From Polytrichum commune (lineage: Eukaryota; Streptophyta; Polytrichopsida; Polytrichales; Polytrichaceae), in NCBI GenBank assembly GCA_950295325.1, contig OX485807.1, positions 19,315,666-19,379,665 on the forward strand: a DNA stretch of 64,000 nt, written 5' to 3'. This document shows, in pieces, positions 5,066 through 52,200 of this stretch. The notes beneath the pieces were generated by a model, which was not told the DNA's origin, did no database searches, and saw nothing but the letters and a program-made list of their open reading frames with translations. Every line of letters starts with the position of its first letter. The first letter of the stretch is position 1. The position numbers and the translations under genes were made by a program.

Positions 5066-6566
5066 TAATTTATAGGAAAATCTCTTTTCTTTTCATTTAT
5101 GAGTTATTAGGTGAGGCTTTGATATTCCAAGTTTAGAAGAAAAAATAAATGAAGTCACAAGATTATTTGTCAACTTTAGGTGTAGCATAAATCAAGTAAA
5201 TTTTTGTTTTTTATATATTTTTATGCAAGAAAGAAACAAAAAGTGGAAAGTGGTGCTTTTGCATCAAACTGACAGAAAGCACATGCCACATGGGTTTCTC
5301 TACAATGCAATATATGGTGTCATTTGCGTTTTACAAATGGTTGGCAAATTAAAGTAGGCTCACAAGAGTAAATTTGTGCTTGTAATTACACATCCACTAG
5401 CTTCTTTTGTCCATGTGGGAGAAAAAAATATTAACAATAGTCTACAAGGCGTGGTCACAGTGATGAGGGTTGGGAAATGACACCCTTCAATCTTCCAACA
5501 CAATCCAATGTTGGAGCATAGACAAACTCCTACTGAACTTGTTAACCAAAGGTACCTAAACAATGCTAATTGTAAAACCTAGACTAATCTTCTTCATAAT
5601 GTAGATGGGCCTTAATTGACACCTATATTTAAACAGTGAATGGTTAGGTGCATATCTAAAAAGGGACACAAAAAAGACACATGTTTACAAAGGATTGGAC
5701 TATGTGTTTAAAATTTGTTAGTCATTCTAGGGCAATAATGAGCATAATTGAGGAAACCTATGTGGCCTTCTTATGGCTCACCATCATTGGACTTTGATAA
5801 ATCATAATAATTCAAGATTAGCTCCAAACACAAGACATGCAACGCTACTTTTTAGAAACTCACAACACTCAAAGTGGAGAAGGCCTGGAATGTCAACTTG
5901 GCATGACTTGTAGGTACTTGACACACCTAGTACAAGTCTGTTTGAGGTCCACCTAGTGAATAATCATAATGCAAATTGTTGGATGAAGATAAGAATATAG
6001 AATATACCTAGGAGTCCAGACTCATACGATTGACTTGAGAAGAACATTCTGTTATTGAAGAAGATCCTGTTGGTGGACAAGTTAATGGATTCGGTAGGTA
6101 GATAGAGTTGGATACATGTCGGTAAATCAAAATCATCAAACAAGGTATGTAATTGTCCACTTAGGCTTGAAAGCGTAATTATCATTTGAAAGTCAAGACA
6201 CAATAAAATCATGTGTCTGTAAGAACATTGTACTAGTGGTTCACGTGCTTTGTGCTGATACTCAACTTCTAAAAAAAATTATTGCAGTCTTTGGTCTGCG
6301 TGTACAACATATTTGTTGAACCTTATTTTATTTTTGTCATCTACATTTTGTTATGGAGTAACTAGTCGCACAATGTTATCCACAATCACAATTAGAGTTC
6401 ATTGTAGAGCGAGCCACTATACAAGCAGACCTAAGTAGCAAATACAGCATGAGAAGCGAGCTCCTCCTTACGAAACACATTCCTGTAAGTAGATACAAAT
6501 ATATCCCAAAAAAAAACAAAGAAAAAACACAAAACAAAAAAAGCAAGTGTCCCCTCCAAGAATCAG
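5066..6566. other. Intergenic, one family B copy
   Basis: No gene recognised. Bases 5630-5790 carry a minus-strand copy of dispersed repeat B, seen as GGTTAGGTG, then ACACATG and GATTGGACTATGTG. Confidence 0.5.
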
Positions 6567-9500: not shown

Positions 9501-10095
9501 ACTCAACATGACTTTTGGTAGGGGAGCTGGTTGCATAAAACACCTTATATTGAGGGTCAAACTCATTTTGGCATGCTGCAATGGTCCTAAAATGAGGTTG
9601 GCCCTCAATAAACCTATGAATTAGGGTGCTCTTTATTTAAATTCAAACACTACTATTACTGCCTCCAGGAATGCACCATCACAAGTAAAAAGAGAGTAAT
9701 TATTGATATTATATGCAAAACAACCGATAGAAAAATTAAAGGGGAACTAACTCCAGACGAGAAATCCCATTGAGTTAAAGGATAAATCCATCTGGTGAAG
9801 ATGATGCTCAATTCAATCCAATGAAGAAAAAGACAAAGGCAGGATCAATTTTCACATGTGAAATTCAGAGTCAAAATACCTTGTCCTCCAGAAACTCCGT
9901 GCTCATATCACAATACCAAGTATTGGCATGAAAATCTGTGACATGAACCTCCAGATTATCATCACCTTTTGGTTGCAAACAAAAGAGAAACATAGGATCC
10001 GCATCCACAGATGATGATGATGATGATGATGATGATGACGACTCCAATTGCGCAGAGCCAAAAACTGGCTCAAAGCCCTCTAGTGTGGTCATCAT
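6567..10095 (-). CDS. XRCC4/PAXX-like DNA double-strand-break repair protein, complete
   Basis: Six exons on the minus strand: 10095-9880, 9238-9118, 8611-8456, 8072-8056 (a 17-bp microexon), 7574-7379 and 6676-6567. All junctions are GT-AG and phases close exactly, giving 816 bp and 271 residues. The order is a Ser-rich segment, a strand-rich head with LEVHVTDFHANTW, then RDEVGIGGSFEDF, VVGQKAKGTPKI, a short coiled-coil stalk (QEKARADRLQDQLDAM), a KKKRRP basic patch and a tail ending RRGAVIAVEDAHEG. The RDEVGIGG core matches plant proteins annotated as XRCC4 family (Arabidopsis At1g61410, from memory). The short stalk and the HVTD..NTW motif also suit PAXX. A role in non-homologous end joining is inferred. 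The start is the first ATG after an in-frame stop. Confidence 0.82.
6921..7313. repeat. Long foldback in the last intron of the XRCC4/PAXX-like gene
   Basis: Arms 6921-7069 and 7163-7313 are about 150 bp each and imperfectly complementary, with a 93-base loop. The outer ends are exact (TAGAGTTATCC against GGATAACTCTA) and the inner ends meet at TTGGCCAAAG. This fits a foldback MITE or a long hairpin RNA source. Confidence 0.85.
7735..8010 (+). repeat. Dispersed repeat B in intron 4
   Basis: Family B copy with the landmarks CATGATTTTTAGAGC, TGACTATTGAG, AGACATGT, AACCACATACCACTCAAAT and AGGTGTCTGAT. It ends about 45 bases before the 17-bp microexon. Confidence 0.7.
8632..8815. repeat. Tandem duplication, two 90-bp units
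   Basis: GATGATCATC at 8632 and GATAATCATC at 8722 start two similar 90-bp units in intron 2, just upstream of exon 3. On the minus strand both units stay open in one frame, giving a 30-residue repeat, but this frame does not join that of exon 3. Confidence 0.85.
10011..10040. repeat. Coding GAT/TCA microsatellite
   Basis: A trinucleotide run inside exon 1 of the XRCC4/PAXX-like gene, encoding about eleven serines in a row on the minus strand. Confidence 0.95.
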
Positions 10096-20727: not shown

Positions 20728-22752
20728 TTACTTCTCCACTTGCTTGTCAACTTGTTTGGAGCGGCGAGGCTTCTTGTTGGTCGAGGAGCTGCTACTGTGA
20801 CTGCTTCGATGTCTCTTGTGATGAACAACCTTCTTGGGAGTGAACAATGAGCGGAGGATCATAAAAGCCACAAGGAATGGGAACGCCAAAAGAGCCGCCG
20901 CCAAAAACCAAATCGTCTCCTTGGTGGCAAAAGATGTAAAAAGCTCGTGCCGAGCTAAAAATTCCTTCAAATTGCTCTGCACGCGTTCATGGTAGGTGTT
21001 AGCGGCCGTTAGAGCACGGCGATAGTGAGGTCCAGCTATGGTGTTCACTTTCTCAAGATGAGGGGCCACGAACGTCGACACCTGCTCAATGTATGGCCTA
21101 CATTTCTCCCTTGCAACCTGCACAAGATCAATAATTTTATCATATCAGGTTTTGACATATTTCCACATCATGTAAAGCTCAACAACAACAAAAACACAAA
21201 TTTAAAGTTGTTTAACTCAAACATAACTTGTGGCCAGAGGTTCGTTGTTTTGAAAATAACAACATCCATGTTTAGCAAGTTTCAGCATATTCTTAGAGGT
21301 TTGAGCAAAGAACATTCTATATGAGTCATTGTAGGTCAAACTCGTCTTCAATTCAAAATCAAATACTACCTTAGAGCATGCACCACAAGTGGAAAGAACT
21401 TATTGATATACAATAGAAGATATTGTATTAAAACGGCCAATGGACATATAATAAATTTCCATTGAGCCATAAGAATTCTCTATTGAACCTACATAAAAAC
21501 AATTTTCGAGCCATAAATATCATCATAATTTCAGATTAATGATATTTAGACTATCAGATCAATGGTCACTAGGAGCCTCTTCACTTAGCTGAGATGTCCA
21601 ACACTCTTCAGGTGGCTTACATTCAAGCAAATATATTTTAAATTCGATCTCAATTATAATCCATTAAAAAAACTGAAACCCAAAAGATATATTTCACCAG
21701 TAAACCTCCTGTGGTAAAATTATTCCTGGCCCTTCCAGTGGCATTCAAATCCAACAGAAAGAGTACTGATTTGACTTGAGTTTACCAATTTCAGAAATTC
21801 CAAATCACAGTTGAAAGCACAAAGGCATTTCATTATATTTTATTATTACCTGCACATACGGGTCCACCTTCTTCTGAACTGTCTCAACATGTGGGGCAAT
21901 GTAATCTCGTGACGCAACACCCGCCTTCTTCGCCGTCTTCAAATGGGGCGCAAGAGCGAGTGTAAGCTTCTGCCAATTCTCCCGGATCACAGGATTCACC
22001 TTCGAGTTGAAAGTGTCAAGGTGGGGTTTAATATACTCATGCACATCCCCGGCTTTCAATGAGGCCGACCTTTGAAGGTTTTTCACAACAGGCTCAGCAT
22101 GTGTAGACCAGTGAGACGATGCAGTTCTTTGAAGGGTTTCAGCATGGGTGGCAGCCCAAGGAGGCAACCACGCTTTGTGGGCCTCATCCAATTTCCTGGC
22201 CTTGGCTTCAGCTTCCGACTGCGCTTTCAGCATTGCGGCTTCTGCAATTTGCAACCCTCGCTCCGCTTTCTGAAGCCGAGTTTTCAGGTCTTCGAGTGCC
22301 TTCACCACCTTTTCCTTCTCGGACACATGCTTCAAGGCTGCTTCTTCAACCACTTTCGCTTTTTCCTCACTCGTTCTCGCCTCCACTTTCAACTTCTCAG
22401 CAGCTTCTTTGTATGAAGCCACTTGTTTTTCAAGCTCGCGGACCTTCGACTGTGCGATTTCTAGCTTCGATTCGGTGTCTCCTGCCGCACCCTGTTTGTG
22501 CGAGTGGAGGTTTTTGACTTCTGATTCCAAGCTCTTGATCCTGCTATCCTTTTCAGAGATCGACAAGTCCTTCGTCTTCAGCCCAACTTGCAGAAGTGAA
22601 ACTTGTTGTTTCAAGTCTGCAATTTCCTTCTGAAAGTCATGTTGTGTGGGTGCTGCTGATTCTACAACGCCTGCATCTCCATTGATCGATGTTGCCACAC
22701 TTAAAAATACGATGGCAAGGACCGGAAGGAGAAATGACCTTGAGGTAGCCAT
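20728..22752 (-). CDS. Signal-peptide coiled-coil protein with a C-terminal membrane segment
   Basis: Two exons, 22752-21850 (301 codons) and 21117-20728, joined in phase 0 by a GT-AG intron, give a 430-residue protein. Residues 1-25 form a signal peptide (FLLPVLAIVFLSVATSI). About 45-200 is a heptad coiled coil rich in Glu, Lys and Ala. Residues 200-380 hold repeats of APH(L/V)/KPHL-type segments and several Trp. A membrane segment (WFLAAALLAFPFLVAFMIL) follows near 380-400, then a Lys/Arg/His/Ser tail. The layout resembles plant proteins loosely named myosin-heavy-chain-related (Arabidopsis At2g24420/At4g31340, from memory), of unproven function, probably ER or endomembrane. A second in-frame ATG at 22773 would add seven residues. 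A possible acceptor just upstream suggests a 5'-UTR intron. Confidence 0.82.
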
Positions 22753-24524
22753 TTTTGATCCCTTTCTGAGCATCTGGGGCCAAGATTAATAAATCCCGTA
22801 ACCAGGGCGTGAAACTTGGTTCAGCTCCTATGTTGTTTGTCCTAGGAACCTAATTTCTGCAAAATGTGGCACAACAGATGAGGAATCAGAAATTTTCAGT
22901 ATAGAAATAAACAGAATGAATCCAATTCAACCTCCTCTTGTAACATTTCTTACAACGAGTTTAAAGTCAGACGGATTGAACTTAGAACAACGAAAACAAA
23001 ACACCAAAAGATCCAGGACATAACTAGAGGGCTTCAACAATCCCCATTTTCTCAATCACAAGATATGAGTTGGCTGTACATTCCAGCCTTGAAAACTTCA
23101 CAACTGGTAGCCCAAGAAATTCCAGAATTCAACACAGGAAAAACTGTAGAACTCAATACTAACACCACCATGTATTACATTGTCCAGTGCCCAAATTCGT
23201 TGCTTTGACTACTACTGTCAAATAAAGACCACTTCGTAAAGAGAAAGAATGCAAGACTAAAGCTTGTAACAGTGAGAACAAATATAAGTCATCAATTACA
23301 AAAAGAGAAGAAAATTACAAGACCTACATCCACAGGAAGAAATGTAATGCACCGAAACACAACCAAAGAGAGCCATCAAGTGTACTCAGAAAACACATGA
23401 GCGTATGCATAGCCACAAAAAAATAATACTTCTTTCATCTGCCATGGATGGCTAACAACCAGAGGTATTAAACCAGGTCCAGAAAATTGAAAAATAAACA
23501 TACAAACAAATGCTGTAAACACCACTTCTCAACAGTGAGAAAGTGTAAGACTAGATTCTCGAGTAACCCTTTTAAACGGTCAAACCACTTGTGAACAAGA
23601 GGCGTTAAGATTCAAGAATCTCTGCGGATGCATCAAATTGTGCAGACCACCCAAATAAAGAAAGATAATTCCCTCTAAAAACAAACTTATTGAGAAATCC
23701 TTTCAAAGGCGTGACCAACAAGGAGTGAGTTAACCCCTATGACCTATTATTGTTACTCCTAACAAGCTGGAGGGTTTGTTGAAGTCATCCTTTTGAAAAC
23801 GCACCCTCCCACAGAAACAGAGAACTGCGCTACGATCTACTCTCACCACCAAATCTTTCACCAAACTAACTTGCGATCTGGCACTCTCAAGTTAAAAAGT
23901 TGACACTTGAAACAAGGAGATCCAGGAGCCAACAACCAAAAACATTCACCACCAGAACCCCACATCTATAGATACTAACCTAGATCATCATCACCAACCC
24001 AGACTCCCCACAACCGAAAACCAAAACACACATCTTCGTACACACACACACACGCGCGCGCAGATGATGCCAACCTTCCCTTGTGGGGAAAAACACACTT
24101 AACCCTCCTCTCCCGAACTTGCGCCCCCCGAAACACCCAACATCATCGAAACTCAAACTTGAAATTTGCGCAAGTTGTCACTTAGTGTGGGTGGCGAGGT
24201 GAAGTGACACTTACCTCACCTATCATGCCAGAAGTGATGGTGATCTTGCTCCTCTCCCCCGGGGCTCCAACTCGTGTTGTTTGAAGTTTTATTTGTGAGT
24301 CCAGCCTAGTGTTACATTCGATACATGAGGAAGTCGTTGTACATGTGTAAGAATGTATCCTTGCAGTTAGAAAGGAAGAGTGATTTCTCCTTCCAGGCTC
24401 CGGACAGCCAGCAGCCCCCACAAGACGAAGCCAGAAGAACAAAGGAAGAAGACCTTGCAAGAGAAGACCCGAGTTTTGTTCGTATGTTCTTTTCCCCTCA
24501 GTTGTTGCGTCTAGAAGAAAGGGC
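22753..24524 (-). other. Upstream region of the coiled-coil gene
   Basis: Probably 5' UTR intron and promoter. No coding exon recognised. A CA run passing into a CG run lies at about 24040-24062. Bases 23913-23941 resemble 2970-3000 upstream of MOG1. Confidence 0.45.
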
Positions 24525-39643: not shown

Positions 39644-39646
39644 TAA

Positions 39647-39670
39647 GGCCCGGTTCAGACCGGGACGTCC
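39647..39670 (+). repeat. Left terminal inverted repeat of the Harbinger element
   Basis: 24 bases, identical to the reverse complement of 52174-52197. AGTGGACAA follows, with GTGGACAA at 39678-39685, 31 bases from the outer end. Confidence 0.92.
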
Positions 39671-39820
39671 GGAAGCAGTGGACAAGATTTTGTGCACCGT
39701 GATTGGGTAAAGGGTTTATTTTGTCCGGTGGGGTATTCACACCGGAGGGACGTCCTCTTGGGCAACTTGCCACGTCATGAGGCCCTCCCGCCAAAATTGA
39801 AGAGGGACTGGTCTCTTGTA

Positions 39821-39868
39821 GTGGACAAGTTTGGGGTGTCCTCGGGAGGTGACCTCAAACTTGTCCAC
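39821..39868. promoter_or_regulatory. Subterminal palindrome of GTGGACAA motifs
   Basis: GTGGACAAGTTTG (39821-39833) pairs with CAAACTTGTCCAC (39856-39868). The GTGGACAA core also sits 31 bases inside each transposon end. It is a candidate binding site for the Myb-like ORF1 protein or the transposase, by inference. Confidence 0.5.
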
Positions 39869-41772
39869 AAGACAAAACCCTCCTCGCTCCGCCTCCGCAC
39901 CTCCGCCTCCTGCACCTCGCTCTTGACATTCTTCTTGGTGATGTCCAAATTCTCTTGGGTTCCTCCTGCACTGCAAGGGAAATTCTACTTGGCCAGTGTT
40001 GCAAATCTGAATCGCGTTGTTGAGTTTCACATGCATGAGTAAATCATAGCGTTTTAGGTCTGGAATTTTTCTTCCTTGAGCTGAGGAGGTTTTTGTTTGA
40101 CAAAAGCTGGATATTTTGTTCACAGTGTGAGGCAACTTTGTGGAGTGGAGGATTTTTGCTTGAGTTGCAAGGAATGTTGGTTTGGTGACGGAAGCTTAAC
40201 CATCTGTGAGGAGGGAGCTCAAGTTTGTTGTCAACCAGTGTTGGTTGAAGTTGTGAGGTGAGGCTCTTGACTTCTTTTTTTTGTTTGTTTCATTTAAAAA
40301 ATAAAAATAAATTCTTCTGTTGCAATCAGCTCTGGTTTGATTCTCCAGTTTGTGGAAGGAAAAGGGGATGATTGAAGGTTTGGCCCTAGCTTGAATTTGG
40401 TGTCAGGGTTTAGGGAATTCTACAAGTTTCAATTTTGGAATTGATGTTTACAATTAATGCAAAAGAGACAGGGACCGTCTTAGGTACATTGATATGAAGA
40501 GCTCAAATTCCTTCACCTTGATTTACCAAATTTGCAAGCTTGAGCTTGAAATTGAGCTCAGGTTGTGTTTTCACTTTGGATGTAGCTGCATTTGGAATTG
40601 CAACGACAAATTTTCCTTCTGTCTACATACTAGCTCTTCCTAGAATGTAATTTGAGGTTGTTGGCATCTGTGAATTACTTGAGAATTTGCATGTTAGGGT
40701 TCGGTGTTGCAGGAAAAATTGGCCAGACAATCCCCCTGGTGGCATTAGTCTAGTTGATAAAAAGGTAAAAATGAAAATCTGAAAACTCCCATGATCACTG
40801 TAAGTAATGAAGTCAGGTCCATGAGCAAGTTCTCTCATTGCATTGGGACCCCCTAAAAAGTTGTTCTTACAATTGATTCTTTCAGACAGAAAAAATACGC
40901 AACCATAGCCACCGTCTACTATTTAGGTGATTTATTTTTTATTTTTTATTTTAAAAAAAAGGCACTTGCAGGAGACATCATAAAGTGGGGATGAAATCCT
41001 AAGGGAGAGGCCTGGTCTTCCGGATTCGGCTTATGTTTGCACAACAATTGTCTGTAAATTCGGTGCTTCACATTCACAGATTGCAACTTGGTGTATTTTA
41101 TCAGAGTTGAGGGATACCGACAGACTTACTAAGCTTGTGCACCTTCAAGTCTTAAATTGTCACTGTTAGCTTCTTGTTTGAGTTGCACCGTGGTTGATGA
41201 TGATAATGGTGATGGATATTTTGTGACCAAATTTATCAGTGGGAGGACTTCAGTGAAGTTGGCGGTGGAGTGTGCTTACAGACCGTCGTTGGATATATAG
41301 TTTCTTGCTACTAGTAGATGCTGAGGGTTTTAGGGGTTATTGGATCTCCCTCTTGAGTAGGCTTGGAGATTGGGAAGCTGTTGCTCTTTTACAAAAACCC
41401 AACTTCTGCAAGTGGAGAGCATCGAAGCGTTGCAGAGGGGAGGTGCAAATTAGCGTTGCAGAGGATTTTGATCACCTAAGGTATGTGGCCCTGTAGTGGG
41501 CACTTCCAACAGCACCAACATTCGTCGGCTTTGGGAAATTGTCTCATTTTGTTAGCAGTTCCAAATCACACAGATTTGTCGTTTCAAGTTTCAGAATCAC
41601 AGTACAGGTGCAAAAGCAGAGATGCATTAGCTACAAGATTAGTCCCAATCAATCATTCTCTATCTCAGACCTACAACGGCCAACTTGTGGGCACTTCTAT
41701 CTCCACATAGAATTAGGAACACATTGGTATTTCAACTACGGAATGTTTTCTTCCATTTTGATTTAATTATGA

Positions 41773-43953
41773 ATGGTGGCTGTTTTGAATCAGATTTCCA
41801 TAATGGAGTACAGGTTATCTTCTAGTTTCGAAACAGAAGAGGAGGATCTCCAGCAGCCACAGACATGTGAGAAATTTTCGGACTTGTTATATGGGGAATT
41901 CCAGGGTGATGATAGTTTTGGTAATTGCACTGCTACAGAGACAGAGCAAGTTCCAGAGGATACATGTGCAGAGAAGGAACAACCTCCCACGAAGAAGCGC
42001 TCGAGAGCTTTGTTGGAAAAATCAAAAAGCAAGAAAAAAAGAGGTGCAAAGATGAAGACCAATTCCATTGACCTTGCACAAAGTTCTGATGAAGAAGAGG
42101 GCAACAAACGAGGACCGAACTGGAAAGAGCATTGGATAGTGAATCTCATTCACTTGCGGGGAAAGATGCATGATAAATTCTGCGGCATGAAAAAACAAGG
42201 TTAGTTTTTCTTAACTTACATTTAAATTGAAACATATATTTATAATATCATTTTTTTGGATAATCACTAAGTTTGTATGCATTGTGCTTATGGAACTTTT
42301 AGGTGTGGACAATTGGGGCGTTCTCCACACTCATCTTGTGGCCGCTTGTCCTGATTTCGATCGAAGTAGCGATGCATGTCGCAAAAAGTGGAAAAAATTG
42401 TACGACGACTACAAATCTGACTACAATGTCAACGGAACCTCTGGTAGTCAAAGGTCTTCAAAGTCCAAATATTACCTTATTATTGATAGCTATATGCATG
42501 ATCGTGCTAATATTTTCAAACATGTTCACGGTAGTGCTACTGATGAGAATCCTAATCAAAATCCTTCTAGTTTGCTACATGAAGGAGAAGACGTACCTGA
42601 AACCATGAAACCACCTGAAGCAAGTAGTTCAGAAGTGCAAGGGAAGAAAAAAACGGACAAGTTTCACTAGTAGAAAATTCTGCGTCCGGATCAACAGAAA
42701 GGCGTTGGTCGCGGTTGTCACTTAGGACGCGTTGACCTGGACATGATGTAACACAATTTTGTTGATTTTTTCTGTTGATATGGTCACAAAAATATTTTTT
42801 TAAAAAAACTTATTATATATATATATATATATATATATAACATTAAAAAATAAAAAATAAAAAATGAATAAATGTCAGATCTGCAACTCCTAACCCCTCC
42901 CAAGTAACCCTCAACCTATACCTTACCTACAAGTATAGACTACCTACAACTCACATAGGTGGCAAGGCCAAGGCCGAAGGTGTCGGCCACGGGAATCGAA
43001 CCTTGCACATAGTGACACCCACACATGTGCCTTAACCACTAGGTCATCACATCACACATGATATAAGTGGAGTGTTTTAAACCTTTCTAGAATAAGGCCA
43101 CTATTTTCTCTTTACTACCTACTTGATGTATATATTTACAGTAAATATATACAGTATATAATTACAGTATATAATTACAGTAAATATATACAGTATATAA
43201 TTATAGTAAATAATTACAGTATATAATTACAGTATATAATTACAGTAAATATATACAGTATATATACAGTATATAATTACTGTAAATGTATACATATAAT
43301 ATATATATATATATATATAATATGTATATATATAATGTGTATATATATATTATATATATACACATTATATACATATATATATTATATGTTACATATATTA
43401 TATACATATTATACATATTAATATGAATTCATATACATATACATATTAATATATTAATATATATATATATTATTAACTATCAACTAATATAATATTTATA
43501 ATATTTACACACCTTTGAATTCGTAATTATTTCCATACCCATACATTTACAAGACTATAAATTGCAAAAAATTTTAAAAATTTTACAATATTCCAATAGA
43601 TCCTAGAATATTCCAAAAAGATTCAAAAAGATTTCACATTTACTAAAATTTTGTTGATTTGGTCATTGTACTATTCTAATCAACAAAAATGTAGGCAGTA
43701 AACTGTTGATTTTTACAAAAATTCAAAAATCAGTGAAATCGGTCAGTGCAGTGCCCGGATCGACAAAGATCTGTTGATTTTTTGTTGATTTGGTCATGAT
43801 TTTCTAGTAGTGTTTGCTGCCCAACAAGCCATGTCTGTGATGGCAGAGCAGTCAGTGAGGCTAACTGACTCAATTACGAGCTCTGAGGCAGCAAAGCTCA
43901 ATTTGTTACAGGGAATGTTGGCGACAATGAACGAGTTGGTGAGGAAGTTGTAG
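41773..43953 (+). CDS. Trihelix/Myb-SANT-like Harbinger ORF1, split by a CACTA element
   Basis: In PIF/Harbinger elements ORF1 is a Myb-like protein that binds the ends and works with the transposase. Exon 1 is 41773-42199, exon 2 starts at 42303, and GT-AG joining keeps the frame. Residues 1-110 are acidic/Ser-rich with a KKRSRALLEKSKSKKKRG nuclear-localisation-like stretch. The helical domain follows (WKEHWIVNLIHLRGKM, then VDNWGVLHTHL, then CRKKWKKLYDDYKSDY). The frame enters the CACTA insertion at 42665 and stops at 42668-42670. After the element and its TTT duplication (43813-43815) it resumes in the same frame at 43816 and runs 45 codons, with a helical end (LNLLQGMLATMNELVRKL), to TAG at 43951-43953. 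The DNA-binding part is thus intact but the tail is lost. A second ATG at 41803 is an alternative start. Confidence 0.75.
42840..43047 (-). mobile_element. tRNA-derived SINE inside the CACTA element
   Basis: On the minus strand an A box (ATGACCTAGTGGTTAAGG, 43047-43030) is followed by a B box (GGTTCGATTCC, 43002-42992), then an unrelated body and a T-rich tail ending near 42840. The boxes have tRNA spacing, but the rest does not fold as a tRNA. Target duplications were not resolved. Confidence 0.7.
43135..43480. repeat. AT-rich tandem repeats
   Basis: Mixed TATA runs and an imperfect TACAGTATATAAT unit repeated several times, inside the CACTA element. Confidence 0.85.
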
Positions 43954-45084
43954 AATTTAATCAACTTTTGTATTTGTTTGTTGGATGGACATGAAATAGG
44001 TGCACTGTAGTATCCAGTGTACACTATGTCGCAGAGATATTTTCCTGCACCGAATATAATATTTTTGTACCACTTTCCTGTTTATGTTTACATGACAAGG
44101 GCAAAAAGCTATTTGGTCTACTACTTCAGTAACATAGTGAGATAATTTGATGAGGCACAGTTAGTGCTTGAGGTTGCTTTGTCAGAACGGATTCAGGTTA
44201 TGAGGAGCATAACAGTTCCTTCAAATTGTCTTTGATTTGATGGGTTTTGGCTCAGAGAACATGATAAACACGCTTGAAGACTCGAGGCTCAAGCATTTGG
44301 AGATTGTCTCATTGAGTCTTCGTTGGCTGCATAGTTAGGTCAATTATACTTTTGCTGCTATTCCTCAGCTTCGGGGTTTTGTTATCTCAAAGTTGGTTGT
44401 GATGATTTTTGAGATGAGATATGGAGAGAACTGAAGTTTCAGGCTCAGGAAGATTGTGGGGATGATGGTTGGGAGCTGTTGGCTTGAATTTCAAAATTTG
44501 CACAAAATCTGTAATGATTTTGGGACGCTTCTTCAAATTTCATCCGCGAACTTTTCCTTTGACTTGTTGGAGGATTCAGGAAGTTTTGATGTAATTGACA
44601 GAACTGCATAAGTTGAGATCCCATAGTAGTTCGGGGGTAGCCCATTCCCAGCCAGAGGCTGCAGACTTCCCTGTCCTCCATCTGCGACGAAGGGCATCGA
44701 ACTGGTCACCCTTTGTATGATTTCTTTCCTCCTTGCACCTCTTGATTTTCTAGTTTTTGTTGTTCTTCTGTAGCTTTTGAAAATCACAGAATTCTGCAAT
44801 GTGTTGGTCACAATTGTGACCAGGGGAATGTTGATTAAATCTTTTCCAGGTGATTGTAAATTATTAACACTCAGGTGATTGGTCTTTGGGAGAGGTGCTT
44901 ACTATATGTGTGTCTTTTCCAGGGTTTCAAATTGCAGAGTGTTTTGTTCCATTAGAAATTCATGAATGTGTAGATTTTGTGAGGTTGGATTTGAGAGGAT
45001 CATGTATTTGCACTAGTAATTCACTTCCAATGCCTGCTCTTTGTGTGCACAGAACTGACTTATAACTGTGAGATTATTAATCAG
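43954..45084. other. Between ORF1 and the kinase fragment
   Basis: No coding exon found. I looked here for an H-box exon (S-H-E-I-R-T-P) that should precede 45085 and saw none. Confidence 0.55.
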
Positions 45085-47744
45085 GAATGGCACAGGTTTT
45101 GGCAACCACTTCCTTAGATCTGGAGCAGAGGGAGCTTGTGACTGCTATGGTTTTTAGTGCCGATGTGCTACTTGCTATTATTTCAGATGTACTGGATCTT
45201 AGTAAAGTTGAGTCTGGTATGACATCTATCTATCTGACTTTTTCTGCATTTGATGATGAGTGTGAGAGAGGAAGTTGTGAATCAACACAGACCAGTTTAT
45301 ATGTATGTGTGACTTATGTATTATTTTGTAGCATATTTTTTTATATAGAGGATTGTCATTTTATTCAGGTAATTGTCTGGATATGAATTGCATACATCTA
45401 ACTAGTCAACTTGAAGGTACAATGAAACTCGAGGAAAGGGAGTTGAATCCCAGGGACATTATTAAACATGTGGTGAGGACGGCCATAGCAGCAAGTAAAG
45501 ACCGTGGCATCAGCATTCAGGCTAATGTTGGAGATGATGTGCCTGCCTTGGTATAATCTTTTACCAATATTTGTAATGCTCGATCTGAATGAGAGACTTC
45601 CATATCAGAATTGTATCATGGTTCAAAATGTAACCAACATGATATGTCCTAACTTTTTTCCTCAGGTTTATGGCGACCCTTTGCGAATAAAGCAAGTGAT
45701 CACCAATCTGGTACAGTGTCTCTTTTCACCAATTGTGTGCACAGTTTTCAGTTAAGCAACATGTGTGTCTCTATATTAAGTTTATATCTTTAACTTCATT
45801 GGTCATCAAAAAGGGCATATTAGTAATATTAGCTTTACAACAAGGCACATACCTATTTATAATCTACTGAATGAAGACACGAGTACTGGATCATGGCGTG
45901 CACATTGATATTGGTATGTTACCGTCAGAAGAGTAGAAAGTTTATAAAGGAAAGTGGGGCAAGGAATTGAGGTGTAGTTAGTTTCTAGCCTACTATGCTG
46001 TTTGGAATAGTTTCCATAATAGAATTCATATTCAGATGTGATATATGCTCAGGTTATGGATTATTGTGTCTCACTGGCAATGTTCACTGCAGGTGTTTAA
46101 TGCAGTTAAGTTCACAAAAAAGGGATATGTGAAAGTTAGACTTCATGTTGTGAGACCCTCAACAGATAAACTCAAAGGGGGAACCCATCATCAATGTGGA
46201 GTGGCAACTCCTGAAACGATTCGTAAAGCTGAAGAAATTGAAGGACATGTAGAGAGAGTGGAAAGAAATGTGACAGGCATTTTGAATGCAAGCTCACCAT
46301 TGATGAAGCTTGGTGGAATGACTCGTGAGGATATCTGGGATCCCTTACTTGAGGGAGGTCGACGAGAGATACCGGAGCTGTCAACAGCAGAGGAGGAAGC
46401 AGAGAATGGTAATGAAGGTGAATTTTAGTTGCTTTTGGAGTCTGTATCTGCATAATTGGTGATTTGACTGTTTCATCTTTGTATTTTACACCAGTTCAAA
46501 CGTTCAGACATGCACCAACCATATAATTTAGTGAGGCAGGGTCCTTTCATGTCCTGCTCTTAGTTGTGGCTTGAACATCCTGGTCGACATGCAAGGTGTT
46601 CTAAGTCAATAAGAAACAGCAACATTAATGCATTTTCAGTGGCAGTATTGATGATATGTAAGTAACCTTCACCACTGATCTACTTCTTTTTTAAATTATT
46701 GGCTTTGCATCTGAGGTTTTCTTACATTTTGTTTCCATTTCTTGTTCAAGTCTTTCATGTTGGATGTTTCTGGACCCGAAACAGGGCGACGGAAGCCAAT
46801 TGGTGAATCTGTACAGGGTAGAGGCTTGTAAAGATGCACAGTGCAGGAATGCAGAGCATGGAGTTATTGCAGGATTCAGATAAGGTTTAATGCATTCCTT
46901 GAAACCCCAGTTTGTTCTGTATTTTAAACTAGCTCTTGCAAAGATGTCTTACAACATTATTGGGGATGTCTTTTTAGATTTTACCTTGGCATGTTTTGGA
47001 AGCAATATCTGTAAATTTTGAGCATACATTAGTCAAGTTTGTTCATAGGAGTTGGTTATTTACTTAGGTCAGGTGTCATATGGATAAAGCCAAGATCTTG
47101 TTCTAGGTTGTTGTTGTGACATCACACTCATAAGGAGATATGATTTAGTGATCTTGAGTGGTTTTCTGAATTAGATTGGCATTGTTCTTTTCCAATAGAA
47201 TCAACAGTTTGGTCACTCATCAACTTAAGTTTGCACAGGTGGGTGAGGTTTTTGAAGCTGATAAGAAAGTGGCTTCAGAGAATGACCAATCACCTAGAGA
47301 TCTTTGGCTGGGATTTGAGATTGAGGACACTGGTATAGGTATGCTTTCAAAAATTTCACCTCTTGTGTGTAGTTGGAATGGACAGTTATGCTTTTATGGA
47401 TTATGGAACAGATAACCATGCAATTTTGATTGATAGCCACAGATGTAGCACAAGCAGAGAATTGGCGAGTAAATTTTTACATCCAAGTTGTTCAGTCACT
47501 GTGGTTTCCTTGAGACAGGTTGTAAGGATGCAATTGAGGCATCTTACTTATCAGCAATTCGAATAATCTTGATAAATATGTATGCTATGAACTCATGTGT
47601 CAAGTGGCCATGTTGCTGATAAAGGTGGCAATATAATGACCAGTCTAAATATTTGACACCGCAATACATTTGTGATCAGGAATTCCTAAGGAAGCAATAC
47701 CAACTCTTTTTGAGAAATTCACTCAAGTTCACTCGTCGACTACT
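45085..47744 (+). pseudogene. AHK5/CKI2-type histidine kinase fragment, captured
   Basis: Exons in order: 45085-45216, 45417-45550, 45666-45710, 46093-46417 (or 46408), a probable 43-bp exon 46785-46827, 47208 (or 47199)-47338 and 47680-47744. The pieces read MAQVLATTSLDLEQRELV and DVLDLSKVESG (end of HisKA), then MKLEERELNPRDIIKHVV, YGDPLRIKQVITNL and FNAVKFTKKGYVKVRL (N box), WLGFEIEDTGIG (G1 box), IPKEAIPTLFEKFTQVHSSTT (F box). The order and exon pattern match AHK5. Missing are the N-terminus with the phosphorylated His, the KYGGTGLGL (G2) segment and the receiver domain. Homology stops at 47744. No frameshift or stop interrupts the main exons, so truncation looks recent. It lies wholly within the Harbinger element. 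Confidence 0.75.
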
Positions 47745-49286
47745 CTTTTATCTCAAGGGTGGCTTAAATCTAAGGCCTTAAGTTGAATCCCACGGGAACT
47801 CTGAGGTTAGGCTGCCTAAGGCCGGAGTAGTCATTTATGTTGTATGGGTGTTGTGCTATACCTGAACAGGTGAGTGGGGTTTTGTATTGGGTTCAGGGCA
47901 TTGATACTCTTTGTAGCAGCAGGAGCACTTTTAGAGGCCCTGGCCATGCTCCGCTACTTTAATTTGAGATGAAAGCTCCAACCAGAAGACTTTAGCTATG
48001 GCACCTGGACTGTTGATAGCAAGAGCTATGGATAAGAAGAGGGGGCTTTAGTTGTTGTGTTATAAGAGCACATTGCTCTATTTCATTGACAGCACACAAG
48101 TTAGATGCAAATGTGTTGAAGATTGTATATGTATATGTAGCCATAACAATGTAGGATACCTTAGCAGACTCTGAGGCCACAGATTCGGTTAAATGAAAAC
48201 GTGATGGAAACAAGCTTATGCATCAGAAGCCCTGGCTCTCACCACTTGCCCTCCCCATGGCCTCTGGAGTTGTATTAAGATGTAGACCTAAAACACTAAC
48301 AGCATAGTCACCATCAACCTCCAAATCTGAGGGGGATAGTTTTCTTGGTGAGGGTTTACAGTATGTTGCCTACCCTTGATATTCTTTGTAGAAAAAGTTT
48401 TCTATCCAAGGAGTAATTTGCAATCAGACTATTACAGATTTCTTAATGGAGGACATTGTGGAAGGTGCTTCACATGACTTCTATATATGAATCTTGATTG
48501 GAAATTGTTTTGTTGCATGAAAGAAGAGATGCATGTAGGCGTTGTGTCTGCTGAACACGTGAAAAACCAATGCAATCTTGTTGGATTTGCATGTTCATCA
48601 AATATTGGCTGATTTCAATACACTAATGAAGTGAAGATTGAAAGTCCACAACCTAATTAACTATGTAGAATATCTCACTCTCCATCCTGCCATGTATTAA
48701 ATAAAGTTGTTTTTGAAATGTGAACTTTTTGATGAGAATGAAATGAACTAAACCCTAGACAATCCAAGTGATCCATCCAGGGTATTGGTACTTGGAAGGC
48801 TCGCACATGGTTCCGTTAGCAGTAAATTTTCTCAGTCTTGAATTTTTGAATTTCCTTCGTTCAATGAGGTCTCTGTAATGGATGAGATATGTTGGTAGAT
48901 ATATGGCCAACAGACCTTTCTAGACCTCAGGATGAAGTCCATTTGAAATACACATCTGTTCCTAATGCAACCTAGCCCCCATGAATCAATTAGTGGATGC
49001 TCGTAAAGATCATTGCTGTAACTTCTACACCAAATTGTCATGTAAGAATTTAATTTGTACCCTTCTTTTCAGTCGTGATGGATTTATTTCAATGGAGACT
49101 ACACATTTTCAAACTATTTTTTCAGTTTCACTACAAATATTTGAGCTTCCTTCATCATGTAATTATCTTTCAATGTAGGCCACATGAAAAAACAAACAAT
49201 CCACTTTATTTTGTAATGAAAGATGTGAGAAATCAATTTCGTGCCACAAACATCTCTAAACATAATGGAGTAATAAAATTAGAATT
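47745..49286. other. Between the kinase fragment and the transposase
   Basis: No gene recognised. At 47735-47833 a GACTACTC/GAGTAGTC pair brackets a segment with AGTTGAATCCC, weakly like a polymerase III B box. Confidence 0.4.
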
Positions 49287-50675
49287 TCAATCAGACTCTG
49301 AAGATGATAATCCAACATGAATATCATACTCGTTCCCTGCTAAATCACGTTGCCGTTTTCTACTAAACAGGGATTTCGCTATGGCATCTCGGCGCATGCT
49401 CATTTGATGTGTAGTTGTAGAGTAATTTGAAATTGAAGCAGTAAGGTCACTATCAAGAGATGTGCGATTTAGGAAATCAATGGGGGAGATTGCAACAGCT
49501 TCCGTTTCCAATAATGTAGTTGATGCAGCTGCTGCAGTTGACGTCGATGCCAAATTCCTTTGGAGCTGAGTTTGACCATCTTCAAACCAAGACATATTAA
49601 AAGTGTCATTATGCATAATAGTCAAATTATGCAAAATCAAACATGCTGTTACATGTGCAGGTACATGCCGGAGTTGACAATCCATCCTTTTTAATAGGAT
49701 TCTCCAACGCAACTTCAATATTCCAAACGCACGTTCCACACACATTCGAGAACTTGATTGAATGAAATTCCAGTGCTCCTGTTCGCGAGTGAAACCGTCT
49801 TTGCTACCAAGATAGGGAGTAAACATCCAGGGACGAGGTTGATAAGTAGCATCGCCCAGTAACGCATAAGGAAGGAGTTTTCCACCTAAACAATATTTAC
49901 CTATGTGGGATTTATAGAATAGGTTGTAGTCATGGATACTACCACACCACCCTATATCATAATCCCAAAAACAACAGGAATGGTCTACTACAGCTTGCAA
50001 TAACACAGAGTGAAATCCTTTTCTACAATAATAATCAGCAGCATGTTGTTCAGGAGCTATGATTGGAATATGACTGCCGTCTATAGCTCCAACAACATAA
50101 GGTATTCCATGGAGCGCTTCAAAATTTTCACTAATAGCTTGCATTTGTGATGGTGAAGGCCATCGAATAAACACATCCCTACAAGTTTCTTTTAGAGCTT
50201 GGCAAAATTCTAAAACAATTCCATGTACGGAAGAGACACCAACCCTAAAGCTATCAGCTATTATATAAAGAGGGGAACCGGATGCTAATCTGGTGATTGC
50301 AATTGCAACTCTTGTTTCAACTGAAATAGCCTTCCTTCGGTTTGTATCGACCTTAATAAGTACTGGCCCAACTTGTTGATAAACGTATTTGAAAGTTTCC
50401 TTTGTCATCCGAAACCGTTGTTTGAAAACAATATTGCTGTATGAACCTATTAAATCAATGTCAGCATATCCTGGGGTTCTTTCATAAGATTGAATCCTTC
50501 CTTTTGTCGATCCAACTCTCTTATTTTCAAGCATAAATTGATGTATAAGAAATAAAGCATTTTGATTTAAACGCAAGCTTGCTTCCACATTGACGGTGGA
50601 AGTGTAGAATAAAGCAATGAAGGATGCAAATTGAAAAATGAAGAGGACAACAAGCTTTCTTCGAGATGGATCCAT
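49287..50675 (-). CDS. HARBI1-like PIF/Harbinger DDE transposase
   Basis: Single-exon frame of 462 residues from ATG at 50675. The frame is open to 50792, but the MDPSRRK start is the first with a plausible N-terminus. A hydrophobic N-terminal stretch is followed by a helix-turn-helix region (TRVAIAITRLASGSPLYIIADSFRVGVSSV), then the DDE_Tnp_4 catalytic core: VVGAIDGSHIPI (first Asp), DIGWCGSIHDYNLF (substrate-side motif), LLGDATYQPRPWMFTPY (second Asp) and SRMCVERAFGILKLRWRIL (Glu). All catalytic residues are present with no stop or frameshift. Pro/Gly positions in the second Asp motif are atypical. The C-terminal 90 residues are Ser/Thr-rich with an RKRQRD basic patch. It would cut and insert the element with the ORF1 protein, acting in the nucleus. 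Confidence 0.93.
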   Translation of the reverse strand: MDPSRRKLVVLFIFQFASFIALFYTSTVNVEASLRLNQNALFLIHQFMLENKRVGSTKGRIQSYERTPGYADIDLIGSYSNIVFKQRFRMTKETFKYVYQQVGPVLIKVDTNRRKAISVETRVAIAITRLASGSPLYIIADSFRVGVSSVHGIVLEFCQALKETCRDVFIRWPSPSQMQAISENFEALHGIPYVVGAIDGSHIPIIAPEQHAADYYCRKGFHSVLLQAVVDHSCCFWDYDIGWCGSIHDYNLFYKSHIGKYCLGGKLLPYALLGDATYQPRPWMFTPYLGSKDGFTREQEHWNFIQSSSRMCVERAFGILKLRWRILLKRMDCQLRHVPAHVTACLILHNLTIMHNDTFNMSWFEDGQTQLQRNLASTSTAAAASTTLLETEAVAISPIDFLNRTSLDSDLTASISNYSTTTHQMSMRRDAIAKSLFSRKRQRDLAGNEYDIHVGLSSSESD

Positions 50676-51731
50676 GGCAGAAAAAATAATAATAAGCAAA
50701 CGGGATACAATTTGTGAGAATATCAAATCTATTGAAATAAAAATATAAGTAGCTGCATAATGTCTACTATATGTAAAAGTTGTAATGAACATTGAGTTGT
50801 CATAAGGTCACTGTAGTTTACTTTACTAGCACTATAAGTAGTCATCTTTTAATGGATTTGTAGTGTAGGTCAACTTACATGTAACTCTAATATTTTTAGT
50901 ACAAGTGTTCAAGCAAACTTTATTTATAATGAATTATAATGGATTTTCATATAATGGTAGATGTTACTTTTTTTTATTTTAAAAAAATGACGAAGAGGCG
51001 ATATTTAATGATAAATGGATGTTTTTATTAACATTATTGATGTTCATATTGTATAAAAATATAACATTAGCACATATCACATATGTGTAGTTTTTTTCAT
51101 TAAAATGTTGACAATTACATGTAGCTATATTTGGAAACTTGAGGGTACAGGGCAACTTCATGAAAGATGTCAGTACTTCTATTCTTTCGTCTTGGTACAC
51201 AACCCAATATTGTTTGTGCAATTTGATAACAAATTCCCTCCAAAATAGCACACTTATTATAATCCATTACCTTTAATTTTATAATGCAATTTTTTATTTT
51301 TTATTTTCAATTTCTTTTTTCAACCTCTAATTAAAAAGGTGATAATACACATAATTTGTGCAAAGAAGATAAAACAAACTCTCCTATGAATGACCAAAAG
51401 AAAAGTCTAGTGAGAAAATGTCTCTAAAACAAATTCATTTTTATGTATGGAGATAAGCTAACTCAAAAAATGTTTTAACATTCTAAGAGAATTTGAGTTT
51501 ATAGATTATTACCTAGTACATATAGAATACCGTTAAGATATATTAAAAATACCATTACATGATTTTCATAATGTTTTCATAATATTTACAAAATTACTTC
51601 TCCCATCATAGAGCAACGGATTCAGTTGAAAATATATTATCATATTATGAGTTTGATGTTCATCTGGGAAAGTAATGCATAAATTTTCACAACACATGAT
51701 GTAGCGTTTATACTTTCATAAAATACGCCTA
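50676..51731. other. Upstream of the transposase, AT-rich
   Basis: Probable transposase promoter and element interior. No gene or clear motif seen. Confidence 0.45.
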
Positions 51732-52047
51732 AGGTAGAGGGGCCATTTCCCGCTGGAATTTCAGATTGGCATGTTCATTGGGGAGTTATTAAGGGGGAAT
51801 CAATCTTGGAAGATGTGCAAAGTACATTGGAAATTGGACCAATTGGAATAATTAATTTTGGATTAATATTGAATTAGTTATGAATTTTGGAAGGAGAACT
51901 CATAGGGGTACCCAAAACCACTCACCCCAAAAATGTACACCATGATTACATAGAAATTTGAGGTTGGAAGCTATAATGTACCTCTTGTTTGGATAGGTCT
52001 AGTGAGCGGTTTAATAAGGACCTGAGCGGGAAAAGGCCCCTCTACCT
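51732..52047. mobile_element. TA-duplicating MITE, family E copy 2
   Basis: The 316-bp element is flanked by TA (51730-51731, 52048-52049). Ends are AGGTAGAGGGGCCATTTCCC and its near complement, and are related to 24654-25018. It was inserted 127 bases inside the right end of the Harbinger element. No coding capacity. Confidence 0.8.
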
Positions 52048-52173
52048 TATATTGGACGTCCGGTTCCGGTGTGAACCCATCCACCGGACGGGCAATGTGA
52101 TTGTTGACGTGGCAAGTTCCCTCCGCAATCAAGCGGACAAAGCACCGGACACCGGGTTTTGTCCACTACGAGT

Positions 52174-52197
52174 GGACGTCCCGGTCTGAACCGGGCC
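52174..52197 (-). repeat. Right terminal inverted repeat of the Harbinger element
   Basis: Exact reverse complement of 39647-39670. TTGTCCAC at 52159-52166 mirrors the left GTGGACAA at the same 31-base distance. Confidence 0.92.
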
Positions 52198-52200
52198 TAA

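Follow-up and report, generated by a model that had tools for sequence, protein, structure and literature searches.

How does part of a histidine kinase gene, introns included, come to lie between the two genes of a DNA transposon, and what stood in its place before? The question is raised by a 12.55-kb element at positions 39647-52197 of a 64,000-nucleotide stretch of the Polytrichum commune genome (assembly GCA_950295325.1, contig OX485807.1; the whole stretch is called the window below), which an original prediction, made from the letters alone, had described as a PIF/Harbinger element with captured kinase exons. The element does belong to that superfamily. Comparison with the rest of the genome indicates that the kinase piece was copied from a gene on another contig, that it took the place of an older, composite load, and that the loaded element then transposed. 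The whole is probably best explained, and we hold this with some confidence, by a low-copy Harbinger family with replaceable cargo slots that are loaded by template-switching repair.

Element structure and insertion sites

All four features by which the superfamily is recognized (a transposase, an open reading frame 1 or ORF1, a TWA duplication and the start of the terminal repeat) are present, confirming 39647-52197 as a PIF/Harbinger element. The 24-bp terminal inverted repeat GGCCCGGTTCAGACCGGGACGTCC occurs exactly at 39647-39670 (+) and 52174-52197 (-), the only two places found in the window with up to three mismatches, and it arose in none of 100 shuffles. It begins with GGCCC, which fits the consensus GG(G/C)CC listed for PIF/Harbinger in Table 1 of PMC4423477; a 3-bp TAA duplication stands on both sides, and the subterminal arms mirror each other over 59 nt (76% complementary). 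The perfect termini, the TAA on both sides, the mirrored motifs and the presence of both Harbinger genes with kinase segments between them had all been predicted, and all hold. The transposase contains a complete Pfam DDE_Tnp_4 domain of the HARBI1/IS5-like type (profile 1-158 of 158, E 6e-30) and gave no match in the PDB at E up to 1; the spliced ORF1 matches Myb_DNA-bind_4 (E 2.4e-7; 31.5 bits against a cut-off of 27). The backbone of the element is as follows.

39644-39646, no strand: target site duplication TAA, left copy (from related uninterrupted repeats)
39647-39670, + strand: left 24-bp terminal inverted repeat, exact
39671-39880, no strand: native left subterminal region with mirrored arms, 81-95% identical to other family members and 99% to the copy on C2
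41803-42664, + strand: ORF1 (Myb/SANT-like), exons 41803-42199 and 42303-42664, then interrupted (spliced open reading frame, Pfam)
42665-43812, no strand: CACTA-like non-autonomous insertion with ends CACTAGTAGAAAA/TTTTCTAGTAGTG and duplication TTT, assigned by ends and duplication length only
43816-43953, + strand: remaining 3' coding part of ORF1, to the stop codon, beyond the nested insertion
49287-50792, - strand: PIF/Harbinger (HARBI1-type) DDE transposase, 501 aa, open frame (Pfam DDE_Tnp_4)
51732-52045, no strand: 314-bp segment also in C2:39343641, C4:21062159 and C3:45535337, skipped in the alignments of other members
52174-52197, - strand: right 24-bp terminal inverted repeat, exact
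52198-52200, no strand: target site duplication TAA, right copy (from flank comparison)

The genome searched comprises 407.8 Mb in 64 contigs, among them C1 to C7 of 42-78 Mb each; the window element is the copy C5:19355312, and its siblings are named here by contig and start. The terminus occurs 20 times genome-wide at up to two mismatches, against none for the reversed control, and these occurrences form nine convergent pairs, with two ends left single. In five of the nine pairs the same triplet, TTA or TAA, flanks both ends: the window copy on C5, C1:7695018, C2:39343641, C6:14320653 and C7:41031373. The C2 sibling (C2:39343641-39355053; 11,413 bp) has its own TTA duplication and is 99.5% identical to the window element. 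Because it holds the same two ends around the same content, the two ends in the window belong to one element, and a reading of them as two separate small elements is ruled out. An assembly duplication was also considered for the C2 and C5 copies and rejected, given 61 differences in 11,400 aligned bases, different flanks and different duplications. The span of 12.55 kb, which the original prediction had called unusual, stands as measured, but part of it is the nested CACTA-like insertion, a 1,148-bp stretch (42665-43812) that is absent from the C2 and C4 siblings and interrupts ORF1 of the window copy; the element proper measures about 11.4 kb. Within this insertion, 43128-43283 consists of AT-rich 13-bp tandem units of the GTATATAATTACA type.

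Sites without the element were sought by joining its flanks. The joined window flanks (300 bp, with one TAA) returned 40 scored matches, the best 40 of 142 candidates, two of which are the window's own flanks; the other 38 all run over the join at 78-83% identity, 37 of them extending 35-72 bases past it and one almost to the end. Five of the 38 were aligned, and all read through the point of insertion, with TTTAA in three, TTTGA in one and TTTAG in one. That so many related repeats read across this point shows that the window element was inserted in a dispersed repeat. For the C2 sibling, all 40 scored matches (the best 40 of 1,075 candidates) cross the joined flanks at 98-99% in the search alignments. 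Related uninterrupted sites thus exist for both copies, and since the joined flanks of each match uninterrupted repeats, the C5 and C2 insertions are real and independent of each other. The host repeat of the C2 sibling is itself probably young and abundant.

The kinase piece and its donor

Searched against the genome, 44840-47750 has three matches: besides the window itself, these are the C2 sibling and C7:17413910-17416793. Identity to the C7 locus, introns included, is 98.65% for the window copy (2,887 aligned columns) and 98.89% for the C2 copy. The C7 locus continues on both sides of the shared part, with an H-box exon (HisKA 1-24, E 1e-7) and a receiver domain (E 5.2e-10), along with a PAS match below cut-off. 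The best PDB match of the receiver is Histidine kinase 5 (4euk, E 5.5e-23; next best 1.2e-10), and by its domains and comparison with solved structures only, the donor would be an AHK5-like hybrid histidine kinase gene. This agrees with the kinase type first proposed, as does a fragment with neither start nor end, lacking both H-box and receiver; the "at least six" exons of that proposal become seven apparent exon segments, six whole and one cut.

44848-47745, + strand: captured histidine kinase fragment from C7:17413910-17416793, 98.65% identical including introns
45085-45216, + strand: exon segment 1, HisKA after the H-box (limits read by eye; Pfam)
45417-45550, + strand: exon segment 2 (limits read by eye)
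45666-45710, + strand: exon segment 3 (limits read by eye)
46093-46408, + strand: exon segment 4 (limits read by eye)
46785-46884, + strand: exon segment 5, with a 1-bp deletion relative to the donor that is common to both element copies (alignment with donor)
47239-47338, + strand: exon segment 6 (limits read by eye)
47680-47745, + strand: exon segment 7, truncated at the right capture junction (alignment with donor)

The idea that the element carried off kinase DNA with its introns needs amending: the introns were indeed copied, but the donor keeps its own copy and nothing was carried off. The window and C2 carriers have identical kinase junctions and the same 1-bp deletion in segment 5, and among 2,882 gap-free columns, 24 split the donor from both elements, the window copy alone differs at 10 and the C2 copy alone at 3. 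Given these shared differences and junctions, one capture followed by a split of the two carriers is the simplest account. The C2 element, with the same piece, junctions and frameshift behind its own TTA duplication, is the cargo-bearing copy at a second locus that had been proposed as a check, and it indicates that capture preceded transposition.

The same observations bear on whether the kinase exons might instead be remains of a host gene still in its original place, around which element ends happened to insert. The presence of introns would fit this, and nothing else does: the C2 element repeats the fragment with the same junctions, uninterrupted repeats match the rejoined flanks of both insertions, and the longer gene stands on C7. 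We therefore give an in-place gene practically no credence, as the original prediction had also supposed.

As a protein, the captured piece most likely does nothing. Its HisKA match covers profile positions 22-66 of 66 and falls below cut-off (25.6 versus 26.9 bits), and its HATPase_c match is above cut-off but truncated, with about half of the ATPase domain missing; the segment-5 deletion would shift the frame if that exon is spliced as we have read it. It is this combination of losses (H-box, half of the ATPase domain and receiver) with a frameshift that argues for an inert product, and the piece was rejected as a functional kinase domain on the partial HisKA, the cut ATPase domain and the deletion. 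A subtler role could be imagined, in which the piece is kept for a chimeric ORF1-kinase transcript or for small RNAs acting on the donor gene. The kinase exons do lie downstream of ORF1 on the same strand, the exon borders compared equal those of the donor, and at 98.65% identity the sequence is still close to it. Set against this are the deletion and missing domains just described, exon differences from the donor of which some, by reading of the alignment, alter the protein, and an ORF1 that is interrupted in the window copy and runs into a late stop in that on C2; retention for function is accordingly very improbable in our judgment.

The junctions themselves are informative. On the left, the breakpoint lies in the intron after the H-box exon, where a short filler, TGTAAA (44855-44860), stands beside a 7-bp stretch common to the donor; on the right, it lies within the exon encoding GIPKEAIPTLFEKFTQVHSSTT, with a 4-bp ACTC microhomology (47742-47745) of a length reached by 432 of 20,000 random position pairs. 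In 25.5 kb around the donor (15.9 kb on one side and 6.7 kb on the other), only the kinase piece matches the C5 and C2 elements at E<=1e-5, and the C4 element has no match at E up to 1e-5; the best stretch there resembling the terminal inverted repeat has 9 mismatches.

Replacement of an older cargo

What occupied the slot before the kinase piece is shown by the sibling C4:21062159, whose backbone is 97.5-98.2% identical to that of the window element (94% over its left subterminal region). In place of the stretch from window 44847 to 47742, this sibling has 1.33 kb of other sequence, which is missing from both kinase carriers. At the left junction, window 44594-44847 matches C3:52246523-52246773, and the C4 element beyond the junction goes on matching the same locus to 52246421; at the right junction, C4 element positions 6087-6259 match approximately C7:22587199-22587368 in one alignment that crosses the junction. 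Between these flanks the C4 slot contains pieces matching C7:22589954-22590118 (90%) and C7:22587663-22587926 (95%), with a piece matching C2:46272178-46272899 (96%) between the two. Because collinearity with the donors extends through both junctions of the C4 cargo, this sibling shows the older state, a mosaic cargo that the kinase piece replaced. The original prediction had the kinase as cargo added to an element; its capture stands, but the piece replaced earlier cargo and is one of several, the closest of them to its donor.

The C2 locus at 46.27 Mb contains an open reading frame that starts 1.1 kb beyond the captured part; it has no Pfam match, and its best PDB match is a weak one to PAN3 (E 3.2e-4), a chain that we take to be human PAN3. 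With moderate confidence, the central piece of the C4 slot can be called a PAN3-locus piece.

The C4 sibling also bears on adjacent insertion, the model proposed for Pack-CACTA, in which aberrant excision removes the facing ends of two related elements that landed close together, leaving their outer ends to enclose and mobilize the host DNA in between. This is the mechanism given for plant Pack-TYPE elements in a 2026 review (PMC13317346), and, with a single genome to compare, element ends may have stood near the donor in the past. Here, however, the kinase piece lies between the two gene regions of one element and is flanked left and right by cargo from other loci, the swap seen in comparison with the C4 sibling is internal, and no matching element sequence is found today in the 25.5 kb around the donor. 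Adjacent insertion is thus very improbable for this locus, and internal replacement by repair remains the preferred explanation.

Other segments, several of them probably captured

The kinase piece is not alone. Further segments of the element match loci elsewhere in the genome, in the spacer between the two genes and to the left of ORF1.

39991-40698, + strand: segment also at C2:23378427-23379302 (89% and 87%) and in the elements C1:7695018 and C4:23719386 (genome search)
40733-41758, + strand: segment matching C4:670263-671268 (88.6%), a probable capture that ends 45 bases before the ORF1 ATG
43979-44287, + strand: GPKOW-locus segment, C5:12212462-12212780, on the 3' side of the open reading frame coding for GPKOW_C (83%)
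44288-44598, + strand: segment matching C7:34257202-34257536 (77%; C4 sibling 89% over 189 columns)
44594-44847, + strand: segment matching two similar loci, C3:52246523-52246773 (96%) and C4:7170219-7170472 (94%)
47746-47831, + strand: older cargo, C7:22587216-22587304 (89%), partly a short interspersed repeat
47826-48694, + strand: WDR11 gene region, C7:31005178-31006425, in two pieces (47826-47954 at 95%, 47958-48694 at 87%)
48886-48967, + strand: short segment matching C2:58015162-58015243 (93%)
48966-49159, + strand: second GPKOW-locus piece, C5:12211844-12212028 (84%)

Two of these donors can be tied to genes. The WDR11 donor region encodes a TPR_WDR11 domain (E 4.5e-28), and the element piece reads VGFCIGFRALILFVAAGALLEALAMLR, one residue off the donor; the GPKOW locus encodes a GPKOW_C domain (E 4.2e-36) in an open reading frame neighbouring the matched part. 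One of the two loci matching 44594-44847 adjoins a weak, below-cut-off match to Pif1 helicase, and the counterpart of this segment is perhaps a repeat and not a gene. The interspersed repeat at window 47756-47831 has some dozens of listed copies at 80-90%. To the left, the segment 40733-41758 ends just before the ORF1 start at 41803, which suggests that the ORF1 promoter region may be host-derived; in the C4 sibling the match to the same C4:670263-671268 locus runs on for about 1.3 kb, and the left regions of the C4 sibling and of C3:45535337 have other matches, at C2:27894970, C5:20944145 and C4:669992.

Together, pieces with a match outside the family total 6,711 of about 11,400 bases, or 59%, a figure that includes pieces whose other place is a repeat or is not established as a gene. 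In the main slot, identity to donors is 83-84% at the edges and highest (98.7%) in the centre, a pattern that successive captures, each replacing the middle of the one before, would produce. A strict gradient is nevertheless not kept by 44288-44598 (77%), 47746-47831 (89%) and the second WDR11 piece (87%).

Such a mosaic might also have been assembled by recombination or gene conversion between elements, with no synthesis from host loci. At the left, the two elements C1:7695018 and C4:23719386 match 40383-40692 at 95-97% versus 87% for C2:23378427, which makes an exchange there probable. The adjoining part, 39991-40387, does not discriminate (87-90% to the same two elements versus 89% to C2:23378427). 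Exchange between elements leaves the kinase, WDR11 and GPKOW-locus pieces unexplained, their best matches outside the elements being single host loci, and for the middle slot the genome search found only two kinase carriers, both alike. As a general account of the mosaic it is very unlikely, and copying from host loci is preferred.

Proposed mechanism

The sequence of events that we favour would begin with an internal break or gap in the element, left by excision or arising at a fragile spot. The gap would be filled by synthesis that switches to a distant template of little homology and then back, and such break-and-fill capture would have recurred. The slots so loaded would be the spacer that separates the 3' end of ORF1 from that of the transposase gene, and the 5' region of ORF1. 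The cargo-bearing element then transposed and now stands in two places with separate TAA and TTA duplications. Repair with template switching is favoured here because of the junction scars, the distant donors and the lack of element sequence around the donor. Such marks would not be predicted by adjacent insertion in the form given for plant Pack-CACTA (PMC13317346). Template-switching gap repair has been proposed for animal Pack-TIRs (in the account of PMC8277862), and filler DNA at excision sites in rice, as presented in PMC4423477, is in line with a repair reading.

A more specific version makes the inter-gene spacer a re-loadable cargo bay, in which each break is mended by copying a distant host locus and loads are serially discarded and replaced; we regard the chances of this version as roughly even. 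In the order that it implies, the GPKOW locus, WDR11 and other pieces would have come first, followed by the PAN3-locus piece or the AHK5-like kinase piece, depending on the branch. If it is true, such an element would be a serial exon shuffler that works by internal replacement and spreads its loads by transposition, and the present copies would be a before-and-after record of distant gene-fragment capture by a cut-and-paste element.

Several points weigh against the favoured explanation by replacement and repair. The repair process is read from scars only, and microhomology is found at one junction only; the lack of termini near the donor today leaves past ones possible. In the alignment of the C4 element with its donor, about 32 extra C4 bases stand right at the left junction, and the slot is thus imperfectly preserved; at the right junction the flanking homology overlaps a dispersed short repeat, though one alignment crosses the junction. 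For five segments (39991-40698, 40733-41758, 44288-44598, 44594-44847 and 48886-48967), the other place is not established as a gene, and for the first of these transfer between the element and C2:23378427 may have gone in either direction, which is not settled. Four of the nine paired family members are without a matching 3-bp duplication. Finally, present movement of the elements is not supported: comparison of the transposases of the two carriers shows 8 nonsynonymous and 3 synonymous changes, and both copies of ORF1 are damaged, that of the window by the CACTA-like insertion and that of the C2 element by a late stop.

The state of the transposase elsewhere can be described from a DNA search of the genome with scores for the best 40 of 107 candidates. 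It gave near-full matches to five copies (91-100%) and one partial match (88%), the other listed rows being relatives at 65-78%. Among the five near-full copies, the frame is free of stops in the window and C2 copies, and the other three contain 2 to 4 stops.

Other family members and neighbouring sequence

The right terminus of C4:21062159 reads ...CTGAACCGTGAGTAA, not ...CTGAACCGGGCCTAA, and TGAGTAA also stands to the left of that element; this right end has the look of a scar left when repair copied the left flank. C1:7695018-7707333 is a 12.3-kb member that was considered as a further carrier of kinase cargo and rejected. Most of its length is owed to an interior that lies between a pair of inverted repeats (376-698 and 9615-9913 in coordinates of the extracted stretch), and as this pair bounds most of the interior, it is probably a nested element. 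A 3-kb extra stretch in C2:60444184 was likewise rejected as host cargo, since its many matches (57 listed, with 40 of 795 candidates scored) mark it as a repeat; the left end of this copy was not found at up to 6 edits in the DNA extracted around it. In the window, outside the element, a 322-aa open reading frame at 21805-22773 (-) has a weak match to FAM76 below cut-off (E 2e-4), and six other open reading frames tested there have no Pfam match at E up to 0.01.

Comparison with known systems

Capture of host DNA by PIF elements is already known from Pifvine-3 of grapevine, which is described as having up to 3.5 kb of extra sequence, mostly matching host exons and introns and sometimes present in several copies (PMC2528002). 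Like the present element, it is a PIF element with TAA or TTA duplications and captured host sequence. In that description, however, the extra sequence lies in a long 5' region, whereas the present element has captured pieces between its two genes as well; and the account contains no traced swap of cargo for cargo, whereas in the present family several donors are located and a sibling preserves the state before the swap. Turmoil-1, a Harbinger element of C. elegans, offers another parallel, since it contains fragments of two host genes and a hotspot of capture has tentatively been inferred for it, but its captures lie in long inverted repeats and not between genes, and the account describes no replacement (PMC2572040). 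In our searches of open-licence papers, we met no traced cargo-for-cargo replacement in one Harbinger slot with the donor at hand.

Animal Pack-TIRs share with the present element internal filler, junction microhomology and an explanation by template switching. They are reported to lie near their parental copies, with 160 (56.9%) within 15 kb, whereas the donors identified here are on other chromosomes or megabases away; and, unlike those reported, the captures here appear to have been serial, with the cargo moved afterwards (PMC8277862).

The relation to Pack-TYPE elements is one of mechanism more than of definition. Gisby and Catoni describe Pack-PIF elements in rice and maize, and the class as they present it comprises terminal-inverted-repeat elements with host gene fragments, the PIF superfamily included (PMC8903248). 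Host gene fragments are present here, as kinase and WDR11 exon pieces with located donors and as GPKOW-locus pieces. In the same source, however, Pack elements are defined as non-autonomous and elements that match a transposase are classed as autonomous, whereas the present element keeps an open transposase frame, of 501 codons in both the window and C2 copies. It would thus work like a Pack element while falling outside the Pack-TYPE definition, and a survey that excludes every element matching a transposase, as was done there (PMC8903248), would not list it among Pack elements. What sets this family apart is an unusually complete single-genome case, in which a donor gene, two elements from after the capture and a sibling with an older state of the slot stand together, so that the scars can be read base by base.

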